Positions 25,477-57,315 of a stretch of DNA of 64,000 nt are shown piece by piece. The position numbers and the translations under genes are program-made. The notes beneath the pieces are model-generated. The model was not told the origin of the DNA. It did not search any database and worked only from the letters and a program-made list of their open reading frames with translations. This DNA is from Fulvimarina manganoxydans (GTDB taxonomy: Bacteria > Pseudomonadota > Alphaproteobacteria > Rhizobiales > Rhizobiaceae): positions 1 to 64,000 of the forward strand of contig NZ_FWXR01000012.1 of assembly GCF_900176465.1 (NCBI RefSeq). The letters are read 5' to 3'. How positions within the stretch are numbered: the stretch's first letter is position 1; every line of letters starts with the position of its first letter.

Positions 25477-26643
25477 GTGAGATCATCAGCAGCGCAAGAA
25501 GCTCTGGAACGCGGACAACGCGCCGTGTCCAAGCCGGCCCTCTTCAGTCGGCAAAAGATCATCACTGTTCTCGCGCTTCTCGCCGCATGCCTGGCCCTTC
25601 CGGTCTCGGCCGCTGCCGCCGATCTTTTCAATCCAATCGGTCCGGTCCTCGCCGCTGAGGCTTGGCATCTGGTCCGCGTGACACTGATCGGCGCCTTCGT
25701 CGTCACGCCGCCGCTTCTCCTCATCGTCTTCGTCATCTGGCGCTATCGGATCGGCGGCGGTTCTTCCAGCTACTGGCCGACCTGGGAGTTCAATGGCTTT
25801 TACGAAACCGCGATCTGGGCGGGGCCGTTGGTGGTTGTCGGTTTCCTTGGTATCTGGCTGGTTTCCTCGACCGTGGAACTCGATCCGTACGCGCCACTGC
25901 CCGGCGCCGATCCGCTCCGCATTGATCTCGTCGGTCTCGACGACAAATGGCTCGCCCTCTATCCGGACGAACGGGTTGCCGCGCTGAACGAGATCGTCCT
26001 GCCGGTCGGGCGGCCCGTCACCTTTCGCATCACGTCCGATACGGTCATGCAGAGCTTCCTGCCGCAAGGTTTTGCCGGCCAGATCTATCTGATGCCGGGC
26101 ATGGTCACGGAGCTGAATCTCGCCGCAAGCGAGCCCGGCGAGGGCAAGGCGATCCAGACACAGTATAATGGGTCGGGCTTTGCCAATCAGCGCGTGCCGA
26201 TGCGCGCCGTGAGCAAGGCGGACTTCGAGACCTGGGTGACCAGCGCCTCCGGCGCGCCGCTCACCGCCGACCGCTACCCGACGCTGATTTCCAGCGGCAA
26301 GAGCGTTCAAGAGTTTCACGCGGCGCAAGCGGTCTTGATGCCACTTTCCGATGACTGCCTGTTCGAGCGAGTGGTCGCTCGCTACCACCAGAATGCGCCG
26401 ATCCCGGTCGCCGCCCAGCCCGGAAGCCCGACCTATGATCCGGGCGCCGCGCCGCTTCCGGCAGGGGCTTGCGGAGCGCTTCTGCCAGCGAATTTCGGCC
26501 CCGCCGGCATGGCGATGGGCACTGGAGAGACGAACCCTATGGCCGACGAAACCATGTCTGGCGCCGCCGATTCCGGCGCCCAGGGCGCCGGCGCCAAGGG
26601 TTCCGGAGAACAAGAAGGCGATCGGATGAGCGGGAGCGAGTGA
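25477..26643 (+). CDS. cyoA: cytochrome bo3-type ubiquinol oxidase subunit II
   Basis: A 388-aa protein with a signal segment (to about residue 48), two membrane helices (about 60-90 and 105-130) and a periplasmic cupredoxin domain. The domain carries ITSDTVMQSFLPQGFAGQIY and MPGMVTELNLAASEPGEG. No Cys/His CuA ligands are present, as expected of quinol oxidases rather than cytochrome c oxidases. The last 60 residues are a Gly/Ala-rich tail, longer than in E. coli CyoA. GTG 25477 is preceded by AAGGGAG at 25463-25469. Confidence 0.88.
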   Translation: MRSSAAQEALERGQRAVSKPALFSRQKIITVLALLAACLALPVSAAAADLFNPIGPVLAAEAWHLVRVTLIGAFVVTPPLLLIVFVIWRYRIGGGSSSYWPTWEFNGFYETAIWAGPLVVVGFLGIWLVSSTVELDPYAPLPGADPLRIDLVGLDDKWLALYPDERVAALNEIVLPVGRPVTFRITSDTVMQSFLPQGFAGQIYLMPGMVTELNLAASEPGEGKAIQTQYNGSGFANQRVPMRAVSKADFETWVTSASGAPLTADRYPTLISSGKSVQEFHAAQAVLMPLSDDCLFERVVARYHQNAPIPVAAQPGSPTYDPGAAPLPAGACGALLPANFGPAGMAMGTGETNPMADETMSGAADSGAQGAGAKGSGEQEGDRMSGSE

Positions 26644-28730
26644 TGAACGAGACTTTTCTTCTCGGCCGGTTGTCCCTTGCCGATATCGAACCGCTGAAGC
26701 TTTTCCAGAATCCCGATATCAGCACCGCGATCGGCTCGCTGGCGAGCTGGGTCGTGATCGTCGGCGCCATCGCCGTGGTTGCTCTGCTCACAGTCAAGGG
26801 CTGGTGGAAGCCGCTCTTCACCGAATGGCTGAACACCACCGATCACAAGAAGATCGGCATCATGTATCTGACCTTTGCCGGGGTCATGTTCATCCGCGGG
26901 GTGCTCGAGGGCGTCGTGATGCGCGCCCATCTGATGACGTCCTATGAGGGCGGCTTTCTCACTTCCGAGCACTTTGCCGAGCTCTTCTCCACCCACGGCA
27001 CGATCATGATCTTCTTCGTGCTGATGCCGGCCCTGATCGGCCTGATGAACCTTCTCGTGCCCCTTCAGATCGGAGCGCGGGACGTCGCCTTTCCGAAGCT
27101 CAATCAGATCAGCCTCGGCTTCACCGCCGTCGGCGGCGTCTTGATCATGCTGTCCCTCGTCGTCGGCGGGTTCGAGACCGGCGGATGGACCGCCTATCCG
27201 CCCTATACCGGTGCCGCTTTCCAGCCGGGCCCTGGCCCCGACTACTGGGTCTGGGCGATCGGCCTGTCCGGTGTCGGCTCGCTTCTCACCGGGCTCAACT
27301 TCGCCGTCACCATCTACAAGATGCGGTGTCCCGGCATGACCTTCATGCGCATGCCGCTTTTTGTCTGGACCGCGCTCTGCACCTCCATTCTTCTCATCTT
27401 CGCGCTGCCGCCGCTCACCGCCGTGACCCTGATGCAGGCCCTCGACCGGTATCTGGATTTCCACTTCTTCACCAATGACCTTGGCGGCAACATGATGAAC
27501 TATGCGAACATGTTCTGGATGTTCGGCCATCCGGAGGTCTATATCCTGATCCTGCCCGCCTTCGGCATCTATTCGGAGATCTCCCAGACCTATTCGGGCA
27601 AGATGCTCTACGGTTATACCTCGCTGGTGCTGGCGACCATGGCGATCGCCGTCCTCTCCTTCACCGTCTGGCTCCACCACTTCTTCACCATGGGCCAGAG
27701 CGCGGCGATCAATGCCGCCTTCGGCGTCGCCACCATGCTGATCGCGATCCCGACGGGGGTGAAGGTCTATGTATGGATCGCCACTCTCTGGCGGGGGCGG
27801 GTGCGCCTCAGAACGCCGATCGTCTATCTCGCCGGCTTCATCGTCTTCTTCGTCATCGGCGGTTACACGGGCGTCATTCTCGCCAATCCGACCATCAATT
27901 TCGCGGTCCACAACTCGCAATTCGTGGTCGCGCATTTTCACAATGTGCTGCTCCCGGGAACGCTGTTTGCGATTCTCGCCGGCATCTACACCTGGTTTCC
28001 GAAATTCTTCGGCTTCCGGCTCGATGAAACCTGGAGCCTTCGCACCGCCTATCTCTTCGTCATCGGCTTCGCGGTCACCTTCCTGCCGCTCTATGTGCTT
28101 GGCCTGATGGGCTATCCGCGCCGCAGTCCCGCCTTCGACGATCCGACCTTCATTCCTTACGTCATCGTCTCCTTCCTCGGCGCCGTGATGCTTCTCGGCG
28201 CGCTCACGAGCCTCATCGTCAGCTTTGTCGTCTCGGTCCGAAAGCGCGACGAGCTCGCGGTTCCCGGCGGCGATCCCTGGGATGGCTGGACGCTGGAATG
28301 GGCGACGCCCGCCCCGGTCCCCGAATGGAACTTCGCCGTCATTCCGGAAGTCCATTCCCGCCACGCCTTCGGCATCGAGAAGATGTCGGGGAACGCCTTC
28401 AGTTTTGAGGAGAGCGAGATCGAGGCGATCGAGATGCCCGCCGGCTCCTATATCGGCCTTGCCATCGCCGTCTTCGGAACGCTTCTGGGCTTTGCCTTGG
28501 TCTTCTGGATCTGGTGGCTCGCCGCGCTCTCGCTTCTGGTCATGGTCGGCTATGGCATCGCCCTCGGCTTCCTGCCCAACCGGCCGATTATCGTTCCGGC
28601 CGAAGAGGTCGCCCGCGTCCACAAGAGCTGGGCCGACGCGGCCCTCGGCGAACGGCGCACCCGCCGCGAGGACGAGACCCTCCCCACCAATCGCGGCTAT
28701 GCCGCACCGATCGCGGGAGCGCACGCATGA
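26643..28730 (+). CDS. cyoB: cytochrome bo3-type ubiquinol oxidase subunit I
   Basis: A 695-aa heme-copper oxidase subunit closely resembling CyoB. Heme and CuB ligands are visible in STHGTIMIFF, GHPEVYILILPAFG, VWLHHFFTMG and VVAHFHNVLLPG. The helix VI Glu is present (HPEVY), as is the K-channel Lys (IPTGVKVYVW). The quinone-site segment reads IRGVLEGVVMR, where E. coli has RGFADAIMMR; the Asp of that site is replaced by Glu. It overlaps cyoA by one base and cyoC by four. Confidence 0.95.
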   Translation: MNETFLLGRLSLADIEPLKLFQNPDISTAIGSLASWVVIVGAIAVVALLTVKGWWKPLFTEWLNTTDHKKIGIMYLTFAGVMFIRGVLEGVVMRAHLMTSYEGGFLTSEHFAELFSTHGTIMIFFVLMPALIGLMNLLVPLQIGARDVAFPKLNQISLGFTAVGGVLIMLSLVVGGFETGGWTAYPPYTGAAFQPGPGPDYWVWAIGLSGVGSLLTGLNFAVTIYKMRCPGMTFMRMPLFVWTALCTSILLIFALPPLTAVTLMQALDRYLDFHFFTNDLGGNMMNYANMFWMFGHPEVYILILPAFGIYSEISQTYSGKMLYGYTSLVLATMAIAVLSFTVWLHHFFTMGQSAAINAAFGVATMLIAIPTGVKVYVWIATLWRGRVRLRTPIVYLAGFIVFFVIGGYTGVILANPTINFAVHNSQFVVAHFHNVLLPGTLFAILAGIYTWFPKFFGFRLDETWSLRTAYLFVIGFAVTFLPLYVLGLMGYPRRSPAFDDPTFIPYVIVSFLGAVMLLGALTSLIVSFVVSVRKRDELAVPGGDPWDGWTLEWATPAPVPEWNFAVIPEVHSRHAFGIEKMSGNAFSFEESEIEAIEMPAGSYIGLAIAVFGTLLGFALVFWIWWLAALSLLVMVGYGIALGFLPNRPIIVPAEEVARVHKSWADAALGERRTRREDETLPTNRGYAAPIAGAHA

Positions 28731-46189: not shown

Positions 46190-46412
46190 TCACTTCGAGC
46201 GAAGGCTTTTGACAAGTTCGACTAGCATCGCGTCTCGCTCATTGGCGAGAGTCTGGATGCTTTTGCGGCCCGCCTCGCTGAGCGTTTCCCCAATCAGCTT
46301 TTCTCGCAGGTCCTTCGTCAAGGCTGGGGTCCCAAGATCGTCCCAGCGCCGCTGCTGGCTGTCGCCGAGATGGTCGAGGTAAGAGGCGATCCCGCCCTCG
46401 CCGCCCCCGAGA
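46190..46412 (-). pseudogene. C-terminal fragment, 3-hydroxyacyl-CoA dehydrogenase-like
   Basis: A minus-strand frame reads EGGIASYLDHLGDSQQQRRW then DDLGTPALTKDLREKLIGET and ends ERDAMLVELVKSLRSK with a stop at 46190-46192. The pattern GGI--YL-HLG---WWDDLG-P-LT-EL resembles the C-terminal region of lambda-crystallin/3-hydroxyacyl-CoA dehydrogenase proteins. The N-terminal NAD domain is missing; the sequence joins the AtuA-like fragment directly near 46410. Confidence 0.45.
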
Positions 46413-47240
46413 TGACCGGACGTGGCTTGCCCTTCGCACCGAACACCCGGACACGATCACGTCCGACTTCGCGAACCTCTACCGAGCTCAGATCGAGGAC
46501 GACGTCAGGAGTCAGATACGCGGACGGATCGTGGATCTCGTAAAGCAGCTGTTCCTTGACGATCCGCTCGTCGACGCAGCCGCCGGTCCCTTCCGGCTTG
46601 GTGAGAACGAGAGACCCGTCCGGACTGACCTCGCAGATCGGAAAGCCGATCGCCTCGAGCCCGTTGACGTCCTTGAAGCCTGGATCGGCGAAGTAGCCGC
46701 CGGTCACCTGCGCTCCGCATTCGAGAAGATGGCCAGCCATGGTCGCGGCGGCGATGCGGTCATCATCCCCCAAATCCCAGCCGAAATGCGCCGCGATGGA
46801 GCCGACGGCGAGAGCGGGGTCGGCGACACGGCCAGTGACGACGATGTCGGCGCCTTTGGTGAGCGCCGCGGCGATCTCACGGGCCCCCAGATAGGCGTTC
46901 GCGCTGACAACCGTTTCACCCGGGGCACGGCAGCGGCGAGCAGGGACGCAAGTTCATCATCCGCGGCTGCCGGGGACAGATCGTCGCCTGTGACAATCGC
47001 GATCCGCGGCGCGCGGCATCCGATGCGAAGCGCGAGCTGCGCGATCGCCTCGGCGGCCCCCTCCGGGTCGGCGGCGCCGAAATTGCCGATGATGGCGATC
47101 CGGTAATCGAGACAATCCTTCAAGATTGGAGAGAGCCGGGCAAGAAGATGGGCGTCGTAGCCGATCCGCCCTGCCCCGCGCTCCAACTGCGCCAGTGCGA
47201 GCGTCCGTTCGGCAAGGGTTTCGAACATCAGGCAGGCGGG
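46405..47240 (-). pseudogene. acyclic terpene utilization AtuA family (DUF1446) protein, frameshifted and truncated
   Basis: Two minus-strand frames together give a central portion of an AtuA/DUF1446 protein: LRIGCRAPRIAIVTGDDL in the first (about 47240-46925), then ETVVSANAYLGAREIAAALT, ADIVVTGRVADPAL and GHLLECGAQVTGGYFADPG in the second (about 46920-46405). The frame changes at about 46922 by one base. The N terminus is lost at the junction with the IS110 fragment and the C terminus at the junction with the dehydrogenase-like fragment. AtuA-type proteins are used in citronellol/geraniol degradation in pseudomonads; this copy cannot be functional. Confidence 0.75.
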
Positions 47241-47862
47241 TCCGCCGGCCTCCGACGGCAGGCAGGTCGCTGGTCTCGTCGGACAGGGCTTCCTCCAGTC
47301 CCTTGAAGTTCGCCGGCCCCTTCGGCGCGACGATGCCGAACTCGGCCAGATGACCTCGCAGCGCGTTGATAAGCTGCGTGCGCTGGCGGACCAGACACTG
47401 GTGCGTGCGGCACGCCACGGCACGCCCCTGCGTCTCGGCGCCCTTTATCGCCACGAAGCGCATGGCCGGGCGCGAAGCCGCTTCGGCGATCGCCTCCGCA
47501 TCGGCACGATCGTTCTTTTGACGCTTCACGAAGGGCTTCACGTAGATCGCGGGCACGATCCGCACCTCATGCCCGTTCTTCTGTGCCACGCGACCCCAGT
47601 GATGCGACGTCGCACACGCCTCCATCGCCACGACGCAAGCCGGCTGGTCGGCCAGCAGCGCCGAGAAGCGCGCTGGCGAAAGCGCGCTTGTACAGAACCG
47701 TCCCGTCCGAGCCGATGGCGCAGACCTGGAAACTCCCCTTCGACAGATCGACCGCCAGCATGCTGATCTGCGCCATCATCGATGAATTCCTTCGATCGGT
47801 TTCTATAGAACCGTCCTGGCATAAGTGATGCCGCCGGTGGGGGCATTCACCGCATCAGTTCA
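47241..47862 (-). mobile_element. broken IS110-family element (left end and transposase N-terminal half)
   Basis: The transposase starts at about 47776-47779 (MMAQISMLAVDLSKGSFQVC) and continues in a second frame with VAMEACATSHHWGRVAQKNG, VKRQKNDRADAEAIAEAASR and CLVRQRTQLINALRGHLAEF, all typical of the DEDD RuvC-like domain of IS110/IS1111. A one-base indel near 47680 breaks the frame, and the sequence changes abruptly to AtuA-like coding at about 47240. The left end (TGAACTGATGCGG at 47851-47862) and the hairpin GGCAT-loop-ATGCC at 47818-47832 are shared with the remnant at 1585. Confidence 0.8.
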
Positions 47863-49118: not shown

Positions 49119-49499
49119 CTATCGCAAACTCTCGAGATAGGCGGCGACGTCTTCGGCTTCGTCCGCCTCGAGGCCGGTGTCGGGCATGGCGTTGCCGGGG
49201 ACGACCGATTGCGGGTCCGTCAGCCAGACTTGCATGTTTTCGGCCGTGTTTCGGATCATGCCGGCGATGAACATGCGATCGCCCATATGGTCGAGCGGCG
49301 GACCGACGCGGCCGGTCGCGCCGTCGATGCCGGGGATTTCGTGGCAGGTGCCGCAGCCCTTGGCGGCGATCAGTTCGGCACCGCGGGCCGCTTGGTCCTT
49401 TCGGTCGGATACCGCTCCGTCACCGCCGCTCTCGCTGCAGCCGGCAAAGGCGAGGAGGCAGGCGGCAAGGGCTAAGGCAGGATGGATCAGACGCCGCAT
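49119..49499 (-). CDS. class I c-type cytochrome, lipoprotein
   Basis: A 126-aa protein with a lipobox (LLAFAGCSES, Cys at about 21), so the mature form is probably anchored to a membrane. One heme site is present, CGTCH (about 49-53), with axial Met probably in GNAMPDTGLEADEA. It resembles small cytochromes used between dehydrogenase and oxidase. It overlaps the preceding membrane-protein gene by 13 bases and is the last gene of the oxidase operon. Confidence 0.85.
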   Translation of the reverse strand: MRRLIHPALALAACLLAFAGCSESGGDGAVSDRKDQAARGAELIAAKGCGTCHEIPGIDGATGRVGPPLDHMGDRMFIAGMIRNTAENMQVWLTDPQSVVPGNAMPDTGLEADEAEDVAAYLESLR

Positions 49500-49948
49500 A
49501 GGTCCCCCCAGACATAGGCCAAGAGATTGACGGCGACGGCGAGGGCGAAGAGGCCGTTCGCCCAGATCGACCAGATGGCGACGAAACGCGTTCGCCCCTG
49601 ACCGGCCTCCATCACGCTTTCCTCATTGCTGGGTTCCCGGTCTCCGGTGCGACGCAGGACGAGGATCGAGACCGCGAAGGCGGCGAGCGCAACGAGCAGG
49701 GCGATTATCGTCACGCCGATCATCGCGGGCGTTGCCCAGGACAGGGAGGCCGCATCGAGCTTCTGCCCGTCGCCGCCGATACAGGCGATGCCGCTCGCCG
49801 CCGAGCCGAAGAACAATTGCAGGGACCAGGCGATCGGTCCGGCCGAAAAGATGGCGAGGAGCGCGAGATCGGAGATCTTTTCCCGATCGGGTGCCGGATC
49901 GCCGATGTCGAAGATCGGATAGGTTCTGTCTTTGGATCGAGAGGTCAT
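49487..49948 (-). CDS. unknown three-helix membrane protein of the oxidase operon
   Basis: A 153-aa protein with three hydrophobic helices (about 28-48, 72-97 and 123-145). A short loop between the first two contains a single Cys (SGIACIGGDGQKLD). No family is recognised. It overlaps the subunit III gene by four bases (ATGA) and the terminal cytochrome c gene by 13, so it is synthesised with the oxidase. An assembly factor or a fourth oxidase subunit is the most economical guess. Confidence 0.7.
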   Translation of the reverse strand: MTSRSKDRTYPIFDIGDPAPDREKISDLALLAIFSAGPIAWSLQLFFGSAASGIACIGGDGQKLDAASLSWATPAMIGVTIIALLVALAAFAVSILVLRRTGDREPSNEESVMEAGQGRTRFVAIWSIWANGLFALAVAVNLLAYVWGDLCGV

Positions 49949-50562
49949 CGCAGATACGGCGTGATGTAGAAGGTGAAGAAGACGGCCAGCCAGACGGCGT
50001 CGACGAAGTGCCAATAGATCGTGCCGATATCGACGGCGCTCATGCGCCGCTCGTCGAAGGCGCCGAGCCCGGACCAGAGGGCGAGCGCAAGGAGGATACC
50101 GAGGCCGGCGACCACATGGGCCATGTGAAAGCCCGTAATGGTGAAGAAGGCGGACCCATAGGCATGCGAGGCGATCGTGTAGGGCTTCTCGCTCCATTCG
50201 AAGATCTGAAGGCCGACGAAGAGCGCGCCGAGCGCGATCGTGACGAGAAGACCGGCGAGAAGTTGGGCGCGTGAGCCCCGCCGCGCGCCGCGCTGGCCGA
50301 ACCAGAGCGTGACGCTGGAGGCGATCAGGATCGCCGTGCCGGGACCGGAGAGGTGGAAGGAGGGCAGAGCCTCGGGCAGAAAGCCGGGGCCCGATCGGGC
50401 CGCGAAATAGTAATAGGCAAAGAGCAGGTAGACGAAGAGCGAGCTCTCCGTCACCACCAGCATCATCATGCCCCACCAGCCATTGGCGGCCCGGCCGATC
50501 GAGCCGATTGGCAGCCTGCCGATATTGAGGGGCGCGCGACTATCCAGGGGAAGCTCACTCAT
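49945..50562 (-). CDS. cytochrome c oxidase subunit III
   Basis: A 205-aa, five-helix COX3-family protein. Family features are GMMMLVVTESSLFVYLLFAY, LFVGLQIFEWSEKP (helix Glu), FFTITGFHMAHVVAGLGILL and IYWHFVDAVWLAVFFTFY. ATG 50562 (MSELPL) overlaps the end of subunit I by eight bases. Confidence 0.9.
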   Translation of the reverse strand: MSELPLDSRAPLNIGRLPIGSIGRAANGWWGMMMLVVTESSLFVYLLFAYYYFAARSGPGFLPEALPSFHLSGPGTAILIASSVTLWFGQRGARRGSRAQLLAGLLVTIALGALFVGLQIFEWSEKPYTIASHAYGSAFFTITGFHMAHVVAGLGILLALALWSGLGAFDERRMSAVDIGTIYWHFVDAVWLAVFFTFYITPYLR

Positions 50563-52498
50563 GGGCCGTTCCCTTCGTCTGGGCGAGATCGCCGCGCGGC
50601 CAGAGCCAGAAGACGCAGCCAAGAAGCGTGGCGACGCCGGCGGCAAGGCCGATCCACCACCAATGGAGAAGGAGGGCCGTGAAGCCGAGCGTCATGGCGA
50701 GCGTCACCAGGAAGGGCCATGGATCGTCCTCCGGCATTTTCAGGATGGCGCGGGGCGCGGCGTCGATCACGGATGTGGCAAGCATCTCCTTGCCGTCGTC
50801 GAGGATCAGGCCGCGCTCGATCGAGGAATGGCCCTCGCTCTCGCCAAGCCGATCTTCCCAGAGAGGGTGACGGCTCGCGACCACCGGCATGACCGTGAAA
50901 TTATAGGCCGGGGGCGGCGAGGCGGTCGCCCATTCCAGGCTCGGCGCATCCCAAGGGTTCGCCCCGGCCGCGACACCCCGCCGAAGGCTCATCCAGACAT
51001 TGACGAAGAGAAGCAGGATGCCGAAGGCGAGGATGAAGGAGCCAACGGTGGTCAGCATGTTGACCCAGGACCAGCCGGCACCCTCGGGATAGGTGTAGAT
51101 GCGCCGCGGCATGCCGAGCAGCCCGGTCCAATGCATGGGTAGGAAGGCAAGATTGAAGCCCAGGAAGGTCAGCCAGAAATTCCAGCGGCCGAGCCGCTCG
51201 CTCAGCATCTTCCCGCTCATCTTCGGGAACCAGAAATAGAGGCCGCCGAGAACACCGAAGAGATTGATGCCGATCAGGACGTAATGGATATGCGCCACGA
51301 CGAAATAGGTATCGTGAAGCTGCAGATCCGCCGCCACCGAGGCGGTGACGACACCCGAAACACCGCCGATCACGAACATGGAGATGAAGCCGGCGAAGTA
51401 GAGGAACGCCGTCGTCACGACGACGCGCCCCGTCCAGATCGTCGCGATCCAGGCGAAGGTCGCGATGGCGCTCGGAATGGTGATGATGAAGGAGGCGCCG
51501 GAGAAATAGGACATGGACAGGAAGGGAATGCCCGTCGCGAACATGTGGTGGACCCAGACGCCGAAGCCGAGCAGCATGGTGGTGATCGTGGCGAGGATGA
51601 CGAGCGTATAGGCGACGAGCGGGCGCCGGCAGAAGACCGGCAGCGCATCCGAAACCATGCCCATGGCCGGCAGCACGATGATGTAGACCCAAGGGTGGGC
51701 GAAGATCCAGAAGAGATGCTGCCATAGGAGGGGCTGGCCGCCGCCAGCGGTGTCGTAGAAATGGGTGCCGAACTGGCGATCGAGCCAGAGCAGGAAGAAG
51801 GCGAGGCTGACCGCCGGATTGGCCAGCAGAATGCCGACCGAGACCGTCGTCGTGCCCCAGATCATGATCGGCAGCCGGTTGATCGACATGCCCGGCGCGC
51901 GGTTACGCATGACGGTCACGACGAAATTGGCCGCGCCGACCGTCGTCGAAATGCCGAAAAACACCATCCCCAGCGCATAGAAATCCATGTTGAGGCCGGG
52001 ATTGAAGGGCTTCAGCGCGTAAGGGGCGTAGTTGAACCAGCCATTGTTCGGTGCCTGGCCGATCAAGAAGCTCGCATACATGAAGAGGCCGGAGGCGAGA
52101 TAGACCCAGTAGGAAAAGGCGTTGAGCCTCGGAAAGGCCATGTCCCGCGTGCCGAGAAGCAGCGGAAACAGATAGTTCGAAAAGCCCGACAGGATCGGCA
52201 GGGCATAAAGGAAGATCATCGTGATGCCGTGCATCGAGAACAGCTGATTGTACTGTTCCGGCGTCAGGATGGTCTGATCGGGCTGCGCCAGCTGAAGGCG
52301 CATGAGAAGGGCCTGGAGGCCGCCGACCACCAGGAAGGCGAAGGCGGTGACGATGTAGCGAATGCCGATCACCTTGTGATCGACGGTTGCGATGACGCCG
52401 AAGAGGCCGGGCTTCGTCTCCCACATCTTGTGGAGCTTCGCCTCCAACTCCTTCGTCACATAGCCTGCTTCGGGGCGCTTCTGATAGTCGACGGCCAA
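50555..52498 (-). CDS. cytochrome c oxidase subunit I, variant lacking D-channel Glu and K-channel Lys
   Basis: A 647-aa heme-copper oxidase subunit with all redox ligands: heme a His in SMHGITMIF; CuB His and cross-linked Tyr in FAHPWVYIIVLPAMGM; CuB His pair in VHHMFATG; heme a3/a His in HDTYFVVAHIHYVLIG. Two proton-path residues are replaced. The Glu of the usual GHPEVYI is Trp (about residue 269), without the Tyr-Ser of A2-type enzymes. The Lys of the usual PTGIK is Ala in PSAIATFAW (about 346). The D-channel entrance (GTRDMAFPRLN) is kept. About 100 residues at the C terminus form an extra subunit III-like extension with two helices. It pairs with a CuA- and cytochrome-c-containing subunit II. 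Confidence 0.92.
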   Translation of the reverse strand: MAVDYQKRPEAGYVTKELEAKLHKMWETKPGLFGVIATVDHKVIGIRYIVTAFAFLVVGGLQALLMRLQLAQPDQTILTPEQYNQLFSMHGITMIFLYALPILSGFSNYLFPLLLGTRDMAFPRLNAFSYWVYLASGLFMYASFLIGQAPNNGWFNYAPYALKPFNPGLNMDFYALGMVFFGISTTVGAANFVVTVMRNRAPGMSINRLPIMIWGTTTVSVGILLANPAVSLAFFLLWLDRQFGTHFYDTAGGGQPLLWQHLFWIFAHPWVYIIVLPAMGMVSDALPVFCRRPLVAYTLVILATITTMLLGFGVWVHHMFATGIPFLSMSYFSGASFIITIPSAIATFAWIATIWTGRVVVTTAFLYFAGFISMFVIGGVSGVVTASVAADLQLHDTYFVVAHIHYVLIGINLFGVLGGLYFWFPKMSGKMLSERLGRWNFWLTFLGFNLAFLPMHWTGLLGMPRRIYTYPEGAGWSWVNMLTTVGSFILAFGILLLFVNVWMSLRRGVAAGANPWDAPSLEWATASPPPAYNFTVMPVVASRHPLWEDRLGESEGHSSIERGLILDDGKEMLATSVIDAAPRAILKMPEDDPWPFLVTLAMTLGFTALLLHWWWIGLAAGVATLLGCVFWLWPRGDLAQTKGTAHE

Positions 52499-52508
52499 GT
52501 GTGTCCCC

Positions 52509-53597
52509 TCAGTCGAGCGTTTCGAGATAGTGGCGGATGGCGTTCAGCTCCGGGCCCGAAAGGTCCGGGTTCGGCATCGTCGTTCCCGGCTTTTGATGCT
52601 GCGGATCGGCGATCCATCCGGAAAGATGGCCGGGCGTATTGGGCAGCGTTACCGACGCGATCGTGGTGCGGTCCATGAGGTGGGTGAGGTCCGGCCCCGC
52701 CTCGCCGCCCGCCAGCGTTCCGCGCACCGCGTGGCAGGCGCCGCATTGGAGACGGAACTGTCGCTCCCCGACGGCCAGCAGCTCGGACCCTTCCGGCACC
52801 TCGTCGGCGGGTTCGAGTTGATGATCCCACCAGGCCTGGAACGCCTCCGGCGCGTCGGCAAAGATCCGCAGGGCCATATGGGCATGCTGCAGGCCGCAAT
52901 ATTCGGCGCATTGGCCGCGATAGACGCCTTCGCGGTCGGCCTGCAGCCAGGTCTCGTTGGTCTGACCGGGAATGACATCCGTTTTGCCCGCAAGCGCCGG
53001 CACCCAGAAGGAGTGGATCACGTCGCGCGAGGCCAAGGTGATGCGAACCGGCTCGCCCACGGGGATATGCAGCTCGTTCGCTGTCACGAAGCTGCGCGAA
53101 GGGTCGTCGGGATCGACATATCGCGCTTCCCACCACCATTGCTGGCCTGTCACTTCGATGGTGAAGGCGGGTTCGCCCGCCGGCTCGTCGATCTCGGCCA
53201 GAACGTCCATCGTCCAGATCACCAAGGCGATCAGAACGAGCGTCGTCAGAGCAAGGCCGAGATAGATCCAGCGATGGCCGCCGGGCGGATGCGCGATGGG
53301 AAGAGGCGAGCCCGGCGTTGCCATCGACGAGCGCCCGTTGCGGAACATGGCGACGATGACGAGAACCGACATGAGCACCGAAACCCCGGCCGCGATCGCC
53401 AGAAGTCCCCAGGTGAGCGAGGCCGTGATGTCGCCCTTCGGTCCGAAGGTCTTAAGATAATACATCGGCGCCGAAGTGGATTCCTCGCTCGCGGCGATGG
53501 CGGGCGAAGCAAGCGCCAGCAACGGCGCCAGAGCGAGCCGACCGACGATCCTCGGCGCCTGGATAGAGGGCTTACGGTTCCACAGGCGTTCCATCAT
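52509..53597 (-). CDS. cytochrome c oxidase subunit II with C-terminal cytochrome c (caa3 type)
   Basis: A 362-aa protein with a signal peptide (to about 36), two membrane helices (about 58-83 and 110-130) and a cupredoxin domain with a complete CuA site. That site consists of DVIHSFWVP and CAEYCGLQHAHM (two Cys, Glu, His, Met). A C-terminal cytochrome c domain carries CGACH (about 285) with a Met in PGTTMPNPDL. It therefore takes electrons from cytochrome c, not quinol. It overlaps the upstream cytochrome gene by four bases (ATGA). Confidence 0.92.
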   Translation of the reverse strand: MMERLWNRKPSIQAPRIVGRLALAPLLALASPAIAASEESTSAPMYYLKTFGPKGDITASLTWGLLAIAAGVSVLMSVLVIVAMFRNGRSSMATPGSPLPIAHPPGGHRWIYLGLALTTLVLIALVIWTMDVLAEIDEPAGEPAFTIEVTGQQWWWEARYVDPDDPSRSFVTANELHIPVGEPVRITLASRDVIHSFWVPALAGKTDVIPGQTNETWLQADREGVYRGQCAEYCGLQHAHMALRIFADAPEAFQAWWDHQLEPADEVPEGSELLAVGERQFRLQCGACHAVRGTLAGGEAGPDLTHLMDRTTIASVTLPNTPGHLSGWIADPQHQKPGTTMPNPDLSGPELNAIRHYLETLD

Positions 53598-54364
53598 TGC
53601 TCGGAAGGGCTCCCTTCGTCGACCGCGACGGGCCGCTCGACATCGGCGAAAGGCGCCTGGCCATAGGAGAAGGGCTGCGTATGCGCCCAGGGGTCGGTGG
53701 TCGAGAGATATTCGGCGGGAACCTGCTCCGGCCCCATATCGTCGAGCGACATCGTCTGGCCCCAGGCATTCTCCGGCGGATCCTTGGCGATCGCCCGGAC
53801 ATAGGCGACGAGATCCCAGATGACGCTATCGGGCAGGAGTTCGCCATAAGCCGGCATGCCGGCGGGTCTGCCTTGCAGGATCGTCAGATAGATATTGGCG
53901 GGCTCGCGCCCATAGATGAAGGCGGCATTCGACAGGGACGGCCCCATGCCGCCCGCGCCATTCGGTGCGTGGCAGCCGACGCAGTTCATCTGGTTGAAAT
54001 AGGTCATGCCGCGCTCGATCGCGGCCTCGGTCTCTTCGGGCGTGTTCAAAGTGGGCGAGACCTCGACATCACCCGGATAGACGCCGGTCACGGGCGTTCG
54101 CATCAGCGCGCTCGGATCGATGTCCCCATCCGGTGACGGCGTCTCGCCGACAGCCTCTGCCGCCTGGTCCTCGACCGAGGCGCCCGGTTCGGCTGTCCGC
54201 TCCACGCTATCGCTCTGCGTCTCGCCGCCGCCATCCTGGGCCAGCGCCAAGAGGGGATAGGAGGACAGCGCAGCGATCGCGAGCGGCAGGAGAAGAGCGC
54301 GTCTCAGGCCGGGGGCCGGATCGGGGGCGATGGCGTGTGTCTTCAGGGCTGGATGCCGGATCAT
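53594..54364 (-). CDS. periplasmic c-type cytochrome of the quinoprotein/oxidase operon
   Basis: A 256-aa protein with a signal peptide ending near LLALAQ (about 41). An acidic Ser/Thr-rich linker follows, then a cytochrome c domain (about 115-215) with CVGCH and Met in GRPAGMPAYGELL. The C-terminal 45 residues have no known fold. AAAGGGA precedes the ATG at 54364. It probably accepts electrons from the PQQ dehydrogenase and passes them to subunit II. Confidence 0.85.
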   Translation of the reverse strand: MIRHPALKTHAIAPDPAPGLRRALLLPLAIAALSSYPLLALAQDGGGETQSDSVERTAEPGASVEDQAAEAVGETPSPDGDIDPSALMRTPVTGVYPGDVEVSPTLNTPEETEAAIERGMTYFNQMNCVGCHAPNGAGGMGPSLSNAAFIYGREPANIYLTILQGRPAGMPAYGELLPDSVIWDLVAYVRAIAKDPPENAWGQTMSLDDMGPEQVPAEYLSTTDPWAHTQPFSYGQAPFADVERPVAVDEGSPSEQ

Positions 54365-54524
54365 CGAAATCCCTTTCCCATGGTTCGACGTGACTTGGTT
54401 CGGCGCGGGGCCGCACGGGCCGCCCGCCAGATCAGGCGACCGCAGACCGGCGTCTCGTTGTTCGTTCGGCCCGCCAAAGCGCATGGCGGAAACGGGAATG
54501 CCGGTTTTTCGACAACCCGGCGCG

Positions 54525-55349
54525 CTAGCGGCGCGGAACGCCGTAATCGGAAAGGATCGCGTCGATGGCCTCGCTCTTCTTAGCGATGACCTGGTCGAGC
54601 TTGTCCTTGAGGTCGTGGTCGTCCTTGCGAACGCCCATGGCGACGACGAATTCGAAGACGAGCGGGAGATAAGTCTCCGTGCCAGTGACCGGCGTGACCG
54701 TCAGCGGCACCTTGGAGGTCTGGGCGAACCAACCGGCGCGCGGACCCCAATCGATGGCCAAGTCGATCTCGCCGGCTTCCAGCGCGCGAAGGAGGTTCTC
54801 CGCCGGCGCTTCCTCACGATAGTCGCCATAGATCGGGAAGCCGACGACATTTTCCGAGATGCCGCGCCGAGCGAGCGCATGGGCGGGCGGCGTATTGGTG
54901 CCGTCGTCGCCGATGAGGCTCACGCCGATCGTCAGATCCTCCAGTTCCGGCGCATTGAGCGAGGAGATGTCGAGATCGTCCTCTGCCCGGCTCACCATCA
55001 CATAGGTCGAGCCGTAATAGGGATGGGTCGTGTCGATCATGTCGAGCGGCGGGATGCCCATGACCACGTCGCAGCTGCCCGCCATCAACGTGTTGCGCAG
55101 GAAACCGCGCCGCTGGGGCCACCATGTATAGGCGACATGCGTGCCCATTTCCTGTGCCACGAGATCGGCGATCCTGTTCTCGAACCCCTCCTCGCGCTTG
55201 TTGGAGAAGGGCATGTTGTTGGGATCGGCGCAGACTTTCAAAGGAAGCGGGGCCGCGCCACTTTGCGGCTCCGCTGTCAGTGCCTTGGCCGGGAAGAGGA
55301 TGGCGAGGCACGCAAGGAGCGTCAGGCCGAGATCATTGCGTGGAGCCAT
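54525..55349 (-). CDS. quinoprotein-associated periplasmic substrate-binding-like protein (MoxJ/XoxJ-type)
   Basis: A 274-aa protein with a Sec signal (to about residue 26) and a solute-binding fold type 3: PLKVCADPNNMPFSNKREEG, then RGFLRNTLMAGSCDVVMGIP, TYVMVSRAEDD and LRALEAGEIDLAIDWGPRAG. These are typical of the proteins found beside PQQ alcohol dehydrogenases (XoxJ/MxaJ group). They are thought to help activate or present the dehydrogenase rather than work in an ABC transporter. It overlaps the dehydrogenase gene by 17 bases. Confidence 0.88.
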   Translation of the reverse strand: MAPRNDLGLTLLACLAILFPAKALTAEPQSGAAPLPLKVCADPNNMPFSNKREEGFENRIADLVAQEMGTHVAYTWWPQRRGFLRNTLMAGSCDVVMGIPPLDMIDTTHPYYGSTYVMVSRAEDDLDISSLNAPELEDLTIGVSLIGDDGTNTPPAHALARRGISENVVGFPIYGDYREEAPAENLLRALEAGEIDLAIDWGPRAGWFAQTSKVPLTVTPVTGTETYLPLVFEFVVAMGVRKDDHDLKDKLDQVIAKKSEAIDAILSDYGVPRR

Positions 55350-57315
55350 TGCCTGCCCTCCCGGCGTCGTTGTCCCTCACGGCATCGCCTTCGTCGACCG
55401 AGGCCGCCTGCGCCACATCCTCGGGCAGGGCGAAGACCAGAAGCGTCGAGCCGCCTTTGGTAAAAGCCGGCAGGTCTTGGCTGGCGCCGACGAAGCCGAG
55501 CGCGCCATTGCGCACCTGCGGGTCGAGTTCGGCCGTGGCGACCGCGCCCGACCAACCGCCGACCCCCGACAGGATCGCCACATATTGGCGCCCGTCCGAG
55601 CCGCGATAGGTGGAGGGCTGGCCGATGAAGCCGGAGGGGGCGCGGAACTGCCAGAGGACTTCGCCGGTCTTGGCATTCACAGCCTTCAGCCAGCGATCCA
55701 TGGTCCCGTAGAAGGCGACGTCGCCGGCGGTCACGACCGTGCCGGACCAGACGGGAAAACGCTCCTTGATCGACCAGACCTCCTTCTGCTCGACCGGGTC
55801 CCACGCCATGAACTCGCCGCGATAGCCGTCGCCGGGGCCGGCATACATGTCGACCGTCGCGCCGAGATAGGGCGTGCCGGCGATATAGCCGACCTCTGAG
55901 GCCTTGAAGTTCATGCAAAGATGCTGGTGAGGGACGTAGAGGAGTTGGTTTTTCGGGGACCAGGCGACCGGCTGCCAATCCTTGGCTCCCGGAGGGGCCG
56001 GGCAGATATTCTCGACCGTCTTGCCGAGATCGGGGTGGAGATCCTCGTTCGGAATGATGCGGCCGGTTTCAAGATCGACGCCCTTATAGGCCGTGACCGT
56101 ATCGAAGGGTTCGGCCGAGATGACCTTCCCATTGGTGCGGTCGATCACATACATATAGCCGGTGCGCCCGGCGCGCACGGCGACCTTGCGCTCTTCTCCC
56201 TCGATCTTAAGGTCGAGCAGCACCAATTCGTTGACACCGTCATGGTCCCATAGATCGTGCGGCGAGGTCTGATAGGCCCATTTCGCCATCCCCGTATCGG
56301 GGTCGCGGGCGAAAATCGTGGTCGTCCAGAGATTGTCGCCTTCGCGCTGATTAGGGTTCCAAGGGCCGGGATTGCCGGTGCCGTAGAAGATCAGGTCGAG
56401 TTCGGGATCGTAGGAGATCCAACCCCAGACGGTGCCGCCGCCGGTCCGCCAGGCGCCGGCGGGCCAAGTCTTTTCGCCGAGATCCTCGCCGCGCATCCAC
56501 TCATAGGGCGCCTCGAAATCCTCGCCGATCTTCACGTCCTCGTCGGAGCCCGTGTGATAGCTGCGCCAGGCGATCTCGCCGCTTTCGGCATCGAGCGCCG
56601 TCAGCCAGCCCCGCACACCCATCTCGCCGCCGGAATTGCCGACAAAGACTTTCCCCTTCACGAAAAGGGGGGCCATGGTCATGGTCTCGCCCTTGGATAT
56701 CTCCCCGAGCTTGGTGTGCCAGACTTCCCTACCGGTTTCGGCATCGACCGCGACCGTATGGTTGTCGAGCGTGTTGTAGAAGATCTTGCCATTGCCATAG
56801 GTCGCGCCGCGATTGACCACATCGCAGCAGGCGACGCCTTGCGCGGCGCGATCGGTCGGCGGGGAGAAGACCCATTTCAATTCACCGGTCGTCGCTTCGA
56901 GGGCGAAGAGATCGTTCGGCCAGGGACCGACGATATACATGGTGTCGCCGACGACGAGAGGGATCGATTCCTGCCCACGATTGACCCCGTTTGAAAAGCT
57001 CCAGGCGAGCTGAAGCTTGTCGACATTCTCCGTATCGATCTGGTCGAGCTCGCTATAGCGGGTGCTCGCATAGGTCTTGGCCGGCATCACCCACTGGTCG
57101 GGATCGCGCTGGAGCTGGTCGATACCTTGGGCGCCGACGTTCTGAGCGACGGAGCCCGAGCTCTCCTCACCTTGTGTCTTTCCGCCTTGAGCGAGCGCGA
57201 GACCGGGAAGCGCCAGAACAAGGGCGAGCGCCGTCATGGCTCGGAAAGTATGCCGTCCCCGCGCGACCCCTGCGCTCGGTCCGGTCTTCGTTTGCGGATG
57301 AACCCATGCCGCCAT
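55333..57315 (-). CDS. PQQ-dependent alcohol dehydrogenase, lanthanide-type (XoxF/ExaF-like)
   Basis: A 660-aa periplasmic quinoprotein with a signal peptide (cleavage near LPGLALAQ, about 43) and an eight-bladed propeller. The vicinal cysteines that stack on PQQ are in GVACCDVVNRG (about 163). Metal ligands are Glu in GNSGGEMGVRGW (about 231), Asn in YGTGNPGPWNPNQ and Asp in HDLWDHDGVNE (about 354). The Asp two positions later marks lanthanide-dependent enzymes; calcium MxaF has Ala there. It probably oxidises methanol, ethanol or other short alcohols. GAGGGGAG six bases before the ATG supports the start at 57315. A 40-residue C-terminal tail is extra. Confidence 0.92.
   Translation of the reverse strand: MAAWVHPQTKTGPSAGVARGRHTFRAMTALALVLALPGLALAQGGKTQGEESSGSVAQNVGAQGIDQLQRDPDQWVMPAKTYASTRYSELDQIDTENVDKLQLAWSFSNGVNRGQESIPLVVGDTMYIVGPWPNDLFALEATTGELKWVFSPPTDRAAQGVACCDVVNRGATYGNGKIFYNTLDNHTVAVDAETGREVWHTKLGEISKGETMTMAPLFVKGKVFVGNSGGEMGVRGWLTALDAESGEIAWRSYHTGSDEDVKIGEDFEAPYEWMRGEDLGEKTWPAGAWRTGGGTVWGWISYDPELDLIFYGTGNPGPWNPNQREGDNLWTTTIFARDPDTGMAKWAYQTSPHDLWDHDGVNELVLLDLKIEGEERKVAVRAGRTGYMYVIDRTNGKVISAEPFDTVTAYKGVDLETGRIIPNEDLHPDLGKTVENICPAPPGAKDWQPVAWSPKNQLLYVPHQHLCMNFKASEVGYIAGTPYLGATVDMYAGPGDGYRGEFMAWDPVEQKEVWSIKERFPVWSGTVVTAGDVAFYGTMDRWLKAVNAKTGEVLWQFRAPSGFIGQPSTYRGSDGRQYVAILSGVGGWSGAVATAELDPQVRNGALGFVGASQDLPAFTKGGSTLLVFALPEDVAQAASVDEGDAVRDNDAGRAGNGSTQ

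Follow-up and report, generated by a model that had tools for sequence, protein, structure and literature searches.

The window analysed here, the first 64,000 nucleotides of contig NZ_FWXR01000012.1 of Fulvimarina manganoxydans (Rhizobiaceae; assembly GCF_900176465.1), contains the genes of a heme-copper oxygen reductase whose subunit I, encoded by COX1 (ctaD), has neither the helix-VI Glu nor the K-channel Lys. These two residues (E286/E278/E242 and K362/K354/K319) are central to the proton models of cytochrome oxidase. Judged by comparison with its relatives, the window oxidase is no lone oddity but a member of a conserved group in which Trp stands at the Glu site. With evenly balanced confidence we read it as a working A-family cytochrome c oxidase of COX operon type a-II, which would take the protons for its chemistry through a D-channel that terminates in hydroxyls and water and in which proton pumping would be weak or absent.

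Subunit I was aligned by phmmer to the Mycobacterium smegmatis oxidase 6adq and, together with its relatives, in an alignment of 102 COX1 rows. In both alignments the helix-VI motif of the window protein reads FAHPWVY and the helix-VIII motif IPSAIA, as compared to FGHPEVY and VPTGIK in solved A1 enzymes. Mapped to bovine numbering via the plant COX1 7jro, these are the changes E242 to W, K319 to A and T316 to S (Trp270, Ala346 and Ser343 of the window protein); S255 is retained. The ligands H90, H268, H317, H318, H403 and H405 as well as the Tyr Y272 are invariant in alignments of 63 and 58 rows. Six His for heme and CuB together with a cross-link Tyr on helix VI are what we take, from the established roles of these residues, to be the mark of the heme-copper oxygen reductases of family A. 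Y272 is present in 30/30 rows carrying Trp (Trp rows), which sets them apart from nitric oxide (NO) reductases without a helix-VI cross-link Tyr. The Glu of the A1 signature XGHPEV is missing (AHPWVY), and the Tyr-Ser pair of the A2 signature YSHPXV does not take its place: F266 and A267 precede the His, with F266 in 30/30 Trp rows and position 267 being Ala in 16 and Gly in 14 of them. The K-channel Lys and the subunit II entry Glu of family A are likewise absent (Ala346, and Ile111 of COX2), and the D-channel residues D91, N80, N98 and N163 are present. The initial annotation of this DNA was thus correct in describing complete heme and CuB ligands, a Trp for the Glu without an A2-type Tyr-Ser, an Ala for the Lys, and a retained Asp/Asn mouth of the D-channel (D91, which is D119 of the window protein, and N98).

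The rows were drawn from the best 80 of at least 591 confirmed related stretches, from five of 923 matching plasmid records, from the window's own genome and from 41 genomes (its own and relatives), which supplied 11 loci. Three copies of the window gene (L002, L093 and L094) and a cbb3 gene (L007) were left out before counting. The resulting set is centred on the query and is no fair sample of family A. The residues at the Glu site and the Lys site are combined as E/K in 37 rows, W/A in 26, E/Q in 25, D/Q in 10, W/T in two, and W/S and W/Q in one row each. Trp never occurs together with Lys (0/30), and the Lys is absent from 65 of the 102 rows of this query-centred set, so that the Lys is not near-invariant, as had been assumed.

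A tree was calculated after removal of the two channel columns (quick search, midpoint root, branch support by the Shimodaira-Hasegawa-like approximate likelihood ratio test (SH-aLRT) only); the accompanying report flags long branches (L006, L092, L086 and L083) and two E/K groups joined by long branches. A branch with a support of 99 separates all 65 Lys-less rows from the remainder, and all Trp rows but one (29/30) form a single group with a support of 100. This group includes the window, Propylenella, Roseovarius, Methylocystis, Methylocella, a Beijerinckiaceae metagenome-assembled genome (MAG), Mesorhizobium, a Sphingomonas MAG, gammaproteobacterial MAGs, Nitrosospira, Nitrosovibrio, Burkholderia, Paraburkholderia, Caballeronia, Trinickia and a Gemmatimonadetes MAG, among others. 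The 30th Trp row (L035:6263-8200, from an Actinomycetota MAG), which combines GHPWVY with PSGTQ and thus Trp with Gln, is placed among the Glu/Gln rows and apparently represents an independent Glu-to-Trp change. A single origin of Trp including this row was rejected by the approximately unbiased test with a p value of 0.007, obtained on the quick tree and for a group defined by its residue, where the test wants a group named beforehand. The presence or absence of Lys requires one change on the tree, and the residue at the Glu site four. Since family A usually has the Lys, this residue would have been lost first, followed by the Glu inside the Lys-less part of the tree. GHPDVY with Gln at the Lys site is seen in nine rows from Micromonosporaceae and in one from an actinobacterial MAG (L036, L038, L039, L041, L042, L044, L045, L047, L048 and L051), and a Glu at helix VII position 304 is found in 10/20 rows of the neighbouring Glu/Asp group.

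Furthermore, genomes of the window's phylum were surveyed with the pattern F-[GA]-HPWVY, which recovers 30/30 known Trp rows and 0/72 others. It is found in 6/398 genomes, the window's own included. All six matches are COX1 proteins without the Lys (PSAVA in four, PSAVT in one and PSAIA in the window); one of them (G223) is probably the same record as alignment row L010. As regards the co-occurrence of AHPWVY and PSAIA, for which a survey had been proposed, Trp is always found without Lys, in the 30 rows as in the six matches (0/6 with Lys), and the residue at the Lys site varies (A, T, S or Q). A narrower pattern ending in AT matched 1/398 genomes, a count that was discarded as this pattern recovers only 5/30 known Trp rows.

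The K-channel was also followed in subunit II. In COX2, the second helix carries close to its beginning a Glu that presumably forms the entry of this channel. This Glu is present in 36/36 Lys-containing rows and in 0/63 Lys-less rows with data, three rows being gapped, and no Asp or Glu lies within the first 16 residues from this column in any of the 65 Lys-less rows (two gapped). The absence of the COX2 Glu alongside the Lys independently supports the loss of the whole path and not of one residue. By sequence, the K-channel is dismantled jointly in subunit I and subunit II across a large group. For B-family enzymes, such a subunit II Glu is named in the available text of PMC8780969.

In the lower D-channel of the 29-row Trp group, D91, N98, S101, S156 and N163 are found in 29/29 rows and N80 in 27/29, and position 157 is Thr in 28 rows and Ser in one. 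A 15-row group that keeps the Glu and has Gln for Lys retains N80 and N163 in 0/15 rows, S101 in 1/15, N98 in 2/15 and D91 in 12/15. These rows have Glu at positions 104 (14 rows), 182 (15), 191 (15) and 238 (13), with none there in the Trp group. Since lower D-channel residues are altered in Glu-keeping groups, these positions can change. By the alignment, the D-channel of the Trp group is cut only at its top; the proton route, whether retained or newly built, seems to differ from lineage to lineage. Three oxidases from rhizobial plasmids (L106, L107 and L108), which stand outside the tree, keep the Glu, lack the Lys, have Asn for D91 and retain N98 and S101.

No ionisable residue present in half or more of the Trp group is specific to it in the 13 helix stretches scanned between positions 41 and 507 (loops and the last two helices left aside), and a compensating Glu or Lys, which would have spoken against the initial annotation, does not appear within these stretches. 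R47 and R/K198 of the Trp group are also common in other Lys-less rows. As compared to the Lys rows, the Trp group mainly gains hydroxyls and amides, namely Tyr98, Ser104, Ser107, Thr186, Thr218, Asn223, Thr304, Thr307 and Asn412; at position 223 the window has Ile instead of the typical Asn. Position 98 is Tyr in 28/30 Trp rows, Phe in 34/35 rows with Glu or Asp and Gln, and Ala or Val in 33/37 Lys rows. Met71, whose backbone binds Glu242 in the bovine oxidase, is Met in 37/37 Lys rows and Leu in 22/29 rows of the Trp group.

With both proton residues gone, no group-specific ionisable replacement in the helices scanned and membership in a conserved group, the previous suggestion of a different proton path or of lower energy conservation is a fair inference. 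In the reading given at the outset, electrons would pass from periplasmic dehydrogenases, here the pyrroloquinoline quinone (PQQ) alcohol dehydrogenase, via c-type cytochromes to CuA, and the chemical protons would enter from the cytoplasm through the retained D-channel. The final proton steps would proceed over hydroxyls and water (candidates are Tyr98, Ser104, Ser107 and Thr185/186) and the active-site Tyr, with no carboxylate involved. Because the Glu switch and the K-channel are gone, pumping would be weak or absent, and the enzyme may mainly be an electron sink conserving about one charge per electron.

Several points weigh against this reading. The direction of the Lys change is taken from outside knowledge because the tree is midpoint-rooted. 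The choice of relay residues is guesswork based on alignment columns, L035 as the Trp row outside the group has Phe98 and Gly107, and packing may account for part of the conservation seen in the lower D-channel. In the AlphaFold2 (AF2) model of subunit I, the predicted local distance difference test score (pLDDT) is below 50 at residues 265-267 and 319-322, beside the active site. A2 enzymes, which are also devoid of the Glu, pump protons. In addition, the requirement of the Lys for K-channel delivery is called consensus in the available part of PMC10341450, and all heme-copper oxidases are electrogenic pumps according to that of PMC8780969, a statement that would speak against low pumping if it applied to this group.

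It is unlikely, in our view, that the enzyme is a full pump with a different gate, in which a relay of hydroxyls and water replaces the Glu much like the A2 Tyr-Ser and pumping is near normal. The retained lower D-channel and Tyr98, Ser104, Ser107, Thr304/307 and Asn412 of the Trp group would fit such a relay, and the A2 Tyr-Ser sits at about the same spatial place in the available text of PMC8361435. However, Trp is bulky and no proton carrier, Met71 of the Lys rows is mostly Leu in the Trp group, L035 does without Tyr98 and Ser107, and the K-channel is absent as well. A similarly small chance is given to an uptake of protons from the periplasm, in the manner of the cytochrome-c-dependent NO reductase (cNOR), by which the oxidase would be a non-electrogenic electron dump, unslowed by a high proton-motive force. 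Such an uptake would leave the invariant lower D-channel unexplained, and the active-site Tyr of oxygen reductases is retained; it agrees with the lack of key residues in both cytoplasmic inputs, with the absence of a new group-specific ionisable residue in the helices scanned, and with cNOR, which has no cytoplasmic channel and is non-electrogenic (PMC3084760, available text).

In model enzymes, mutation of either residue causes severe impairment, but a decaying or non-catalytic protein retained for another role is highly improbable, as the ligands, the CuA site and the heme c domain are retained, nonsynonymous divergence (dN) is well below synonymous divergence (dS) in nine pairs of Trp genes, and COX2 adjoins COX1 in 29/29 other Trp loci. 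The dN/dS ratios of these pairs (Nei-Gojobori method, NG86) lie at about 0.05-0.31; the highest values, 0.31 and 0.25, come from both pairs involving the window, and the lowest from a pair with a saturated dS of 2.7. Together with the intact ligands, these ratios argue for a working enzyme. The AF2 model (mean pLDDT 89.7) superposes with 1.6 Å over 500 residues on Rhodobacter sphaeroides aa3 (3dtu) and with 2.1 Å over 584 residues on Thermus caa3, and it is aligned through residue 635 with bo3 and caa3 chains. At L091:8001-10631, on a Burkholderia multivorans plasmid, the oxidase is annotated as a single frame of 2631 bases, long enough for a COX1-COX3 fusion.

Tentatively, and with somewhat less than even confidence, we propose that the Trp group represents a third proton circuit of family A, which would have no carboxylate or Lys on its cytoplasmic inputs above the D-channel mouth and would use hydroxyls, water and the active-site Tyr. 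It would have arisen in two steps, the dismantling of the K-channel in two genes and then the exchange of Glu for Trp, apparently twice. A group that retains catalytic site and channel mouth while lacking both residues would be a natural test of what the chemistry needs as opposed to what serves pumping only. Ready comparisons are offered by the nested losses and by the Glu-keeping group, in which D-channel Asn residues were lost and as many as four buried Glu are peculiar to the group.

The genes of the locus lie on one strand in the order PQQ dehydrogenase, MoxJ-like protein, cytochrome c, COX2, COX1, COX3, small hydrophobic protein and cytochrome c (Table 1). Subunit I scores 686 bits with NCBIfam TIGR02891 (CtaD_CoxA; cut-off 670.75) and 496 bits with Pfam COX1. 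The CuA ligands on COX2 (GQCAEYCGLQHAHM) and its Cytochrom_C domain mark a cytochrome c oxidase and not a quinol oxidase. COX3 covers 78-255 of the 258 positions of the Pfam COX3 profile. With the Nitrosovibrio gene as query, no match to the 153-residue protein was obtained at the limit used. The PQQ dehydrogenase carries the motif WDHDG; an Asp two residues past the catalytic Asp is presumably a mark of lanthanide-dependent enzymes. Elsewhere in the window (46318-47846), an AtuA-family gene appears to be broken: it is split between two frames and lies next to an IS110 transposase fragment.

Table 1. Genes and codons of the window oxidase and its surroundings (positions in the window)
Feature	Position	Strand	Basis
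COX1 (ctaD), subunit I, 647 residues, C-terminal extension, TTG start as listed	50555..52498	-	list of open reading frames, NCBIfam, AF2 model
Codon TGG of Trp270 (bovine Glu242), top of D-channel	51689..51691	-	alignment; pattern match 51683-51703
Codon of Ala346 (bovine Lys319), K-channel	51461..51463	-	6adq alignment, 102-row alignment, bovine mapping
Codon of Ser343 (bovine Thr316), K-channel	51470..51472	-	102-row alignment, bovine mapping
Codon of Tyr98, helix II, candidate hydroxyl relay, presumably near residue 270	52205..52207	-	alignment
Codon of Ser104, helix II; Ser in 30/30 Trp rows	52187..52189	-	alignment
COX2, with the CuA site GQCAEYCGLQHAHM and, at its C-terminus, a cytochrome c domain	52509..53597	-	profile matches, COX2 alignment
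COX2 Ile111, column with Glu in Lys-containing oxidases (K-channel entry)	53265..53267	-	COX2 alignment
COX3, short form, 205 residues	49945..50562	-	Pfam COX3 match
Hydrophobic protein, 153 residues, where many Trp loci carry a similar-sized gene	49487..49948	-	position only
Small c-type cytochrome	49119..49499	-	profile matches
c-type cytochrome, probable electron carrier to COX2	53594..54484	-	profile matches
MoxJ-like quinoprotein-associated periplasmic protein	54525..55349	-	TIGR03871
PQQ-dependent dehydrogenase, methanol/ethanol family	55333..57315	-	TIGR03075
For comparison: bo3-type subunit I keeping Glu as well as Lys; its real start probably lies further inside the frame	26469..28730	+	open reading frame as listed, alignment

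A PQQ dehydrogenase gene is found in the window and in 9/29 other Trp loci (7/18 of those with at least 6.5 kb on both sides); locus L008 has MoxJ alone, at a contig end. It is found in 0/72 non-Trp rows, 52 of these loci being cut short, and in 3/5 survey genomes other than the window's own, one of the three probably being L010 again. In 16/29 Trp loci, including Burkholderiales and nitrifier rows, there is a gene for a c-type cytochrome of another kind, a relative of a Nitrosovibrio protein of 429 residues, and a pyruvate-oxidase-like thiamine-diphosphate enzyme (PRK08273 for L013 and L088) in 9/29 (L013, L019, L023, L026, L028, L030, L031, L088 and L091). Two of the three Glu-keeping oxidases of rhizobial plasmids (L106 and L107) adjoin a PQQ/MoxJ/cytochrome cassette, with dehydrogenases 71% and 61% identical to that of the window. 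Thus, the quinoprotein link belongs to the wider Lys-less group, and a general rule linking Trp to PQQ was dropped. The supposed tuning to a high-potential quinoprotein chain is not supported in that form, and the neighbourhood of a PQQ dehydrogenase, which was to be checked as a constant feature, is frequent but neither universal nor specific.

The genome contains seven heme-copper subunit I genes: three with Glu and Lys (L001, L003 and L006), two with Glu and with Gln for Lys (L004, C10:66483-68348; L005, C29:145939-147807), the window gene, and one of the cbb3 type (L007). L004 and L005 are missing D-channel Asn residues and belong to the 15-row group with buried Glu at 104, 182, 191 and 238. 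The bo3 subunit I indeed keeps both residues in the alignment, but the picture of one standard and one aberrant enzyme in this genome is too simple.

When compared with known systems, the aa3 oxidase of Mycobacterium smegmatis (6adq), a proton pump, is the best solved sequence match, with 32-548 aligned and a superposition of 1.8 Å over 518 residues; it has the Glu and the Lys, unlike the window subunit I. The A2 oxidases (Rhodothermus and Thermus caa3) have the K-channel Lys and share with the window group the absence of the A1 helix-VI Glu. This absence is also stated for A2 enzymes in the available text of PMC8780969, and their motif there and in that of PMC8361435 is YSHPXV, in contrast to the FG or FA before HPW, without Lys, of the window group. 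As A2 enzymes demonstrate, Tyr-Ser can stand in for the Glu, and K-channel delivery is said to need the Lys; the window group has neither solution. The coxMNOP/CoxN oxidases of Bradyrhizobium, Sinorhizobium and Pseudomonas KF707 are alternative A-type enzymes with a c-type heme on subunit II like that of the window (PMC5492768); proton-channel residues are not discussed in the available part of that paper. Repeated loss of the K-channel in family A is considered in PMC8239418, as far as available, within a hypothesis weighed for archaea.

The Trp motif or the double loss of Glu and Lys is not mentioned in the literature searched, from which supplements and subscription papers were beyond reach, so that the variant may have been described before. 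COX operon type a-II (Degli Esposti 2014, PMC4013037) is described, in the parts available, by a COX1 of 630-670 residues with a COX4-like C-terminal extension, a short five-helix COX3 and often adjacent PQQ-dehydrogenase genes, and PMC6431628, likewise in part, places it under 'A1 oxidases, subtype a'. The window shares with this type its COX1 of 647 residues with a C-terminal extension, the short COX3 and the adjacent PQQ dehydrogenase; it differs in the lost proton-channel residues, which the available parts of PMC4013037 do not mention. As the Glu-keeping rhizobial L106 and L107 also fit the description, type a-II would extend beyond the Trp group. The gene arrangement of the window oxidase resembles that of the described COX operon type a-II.

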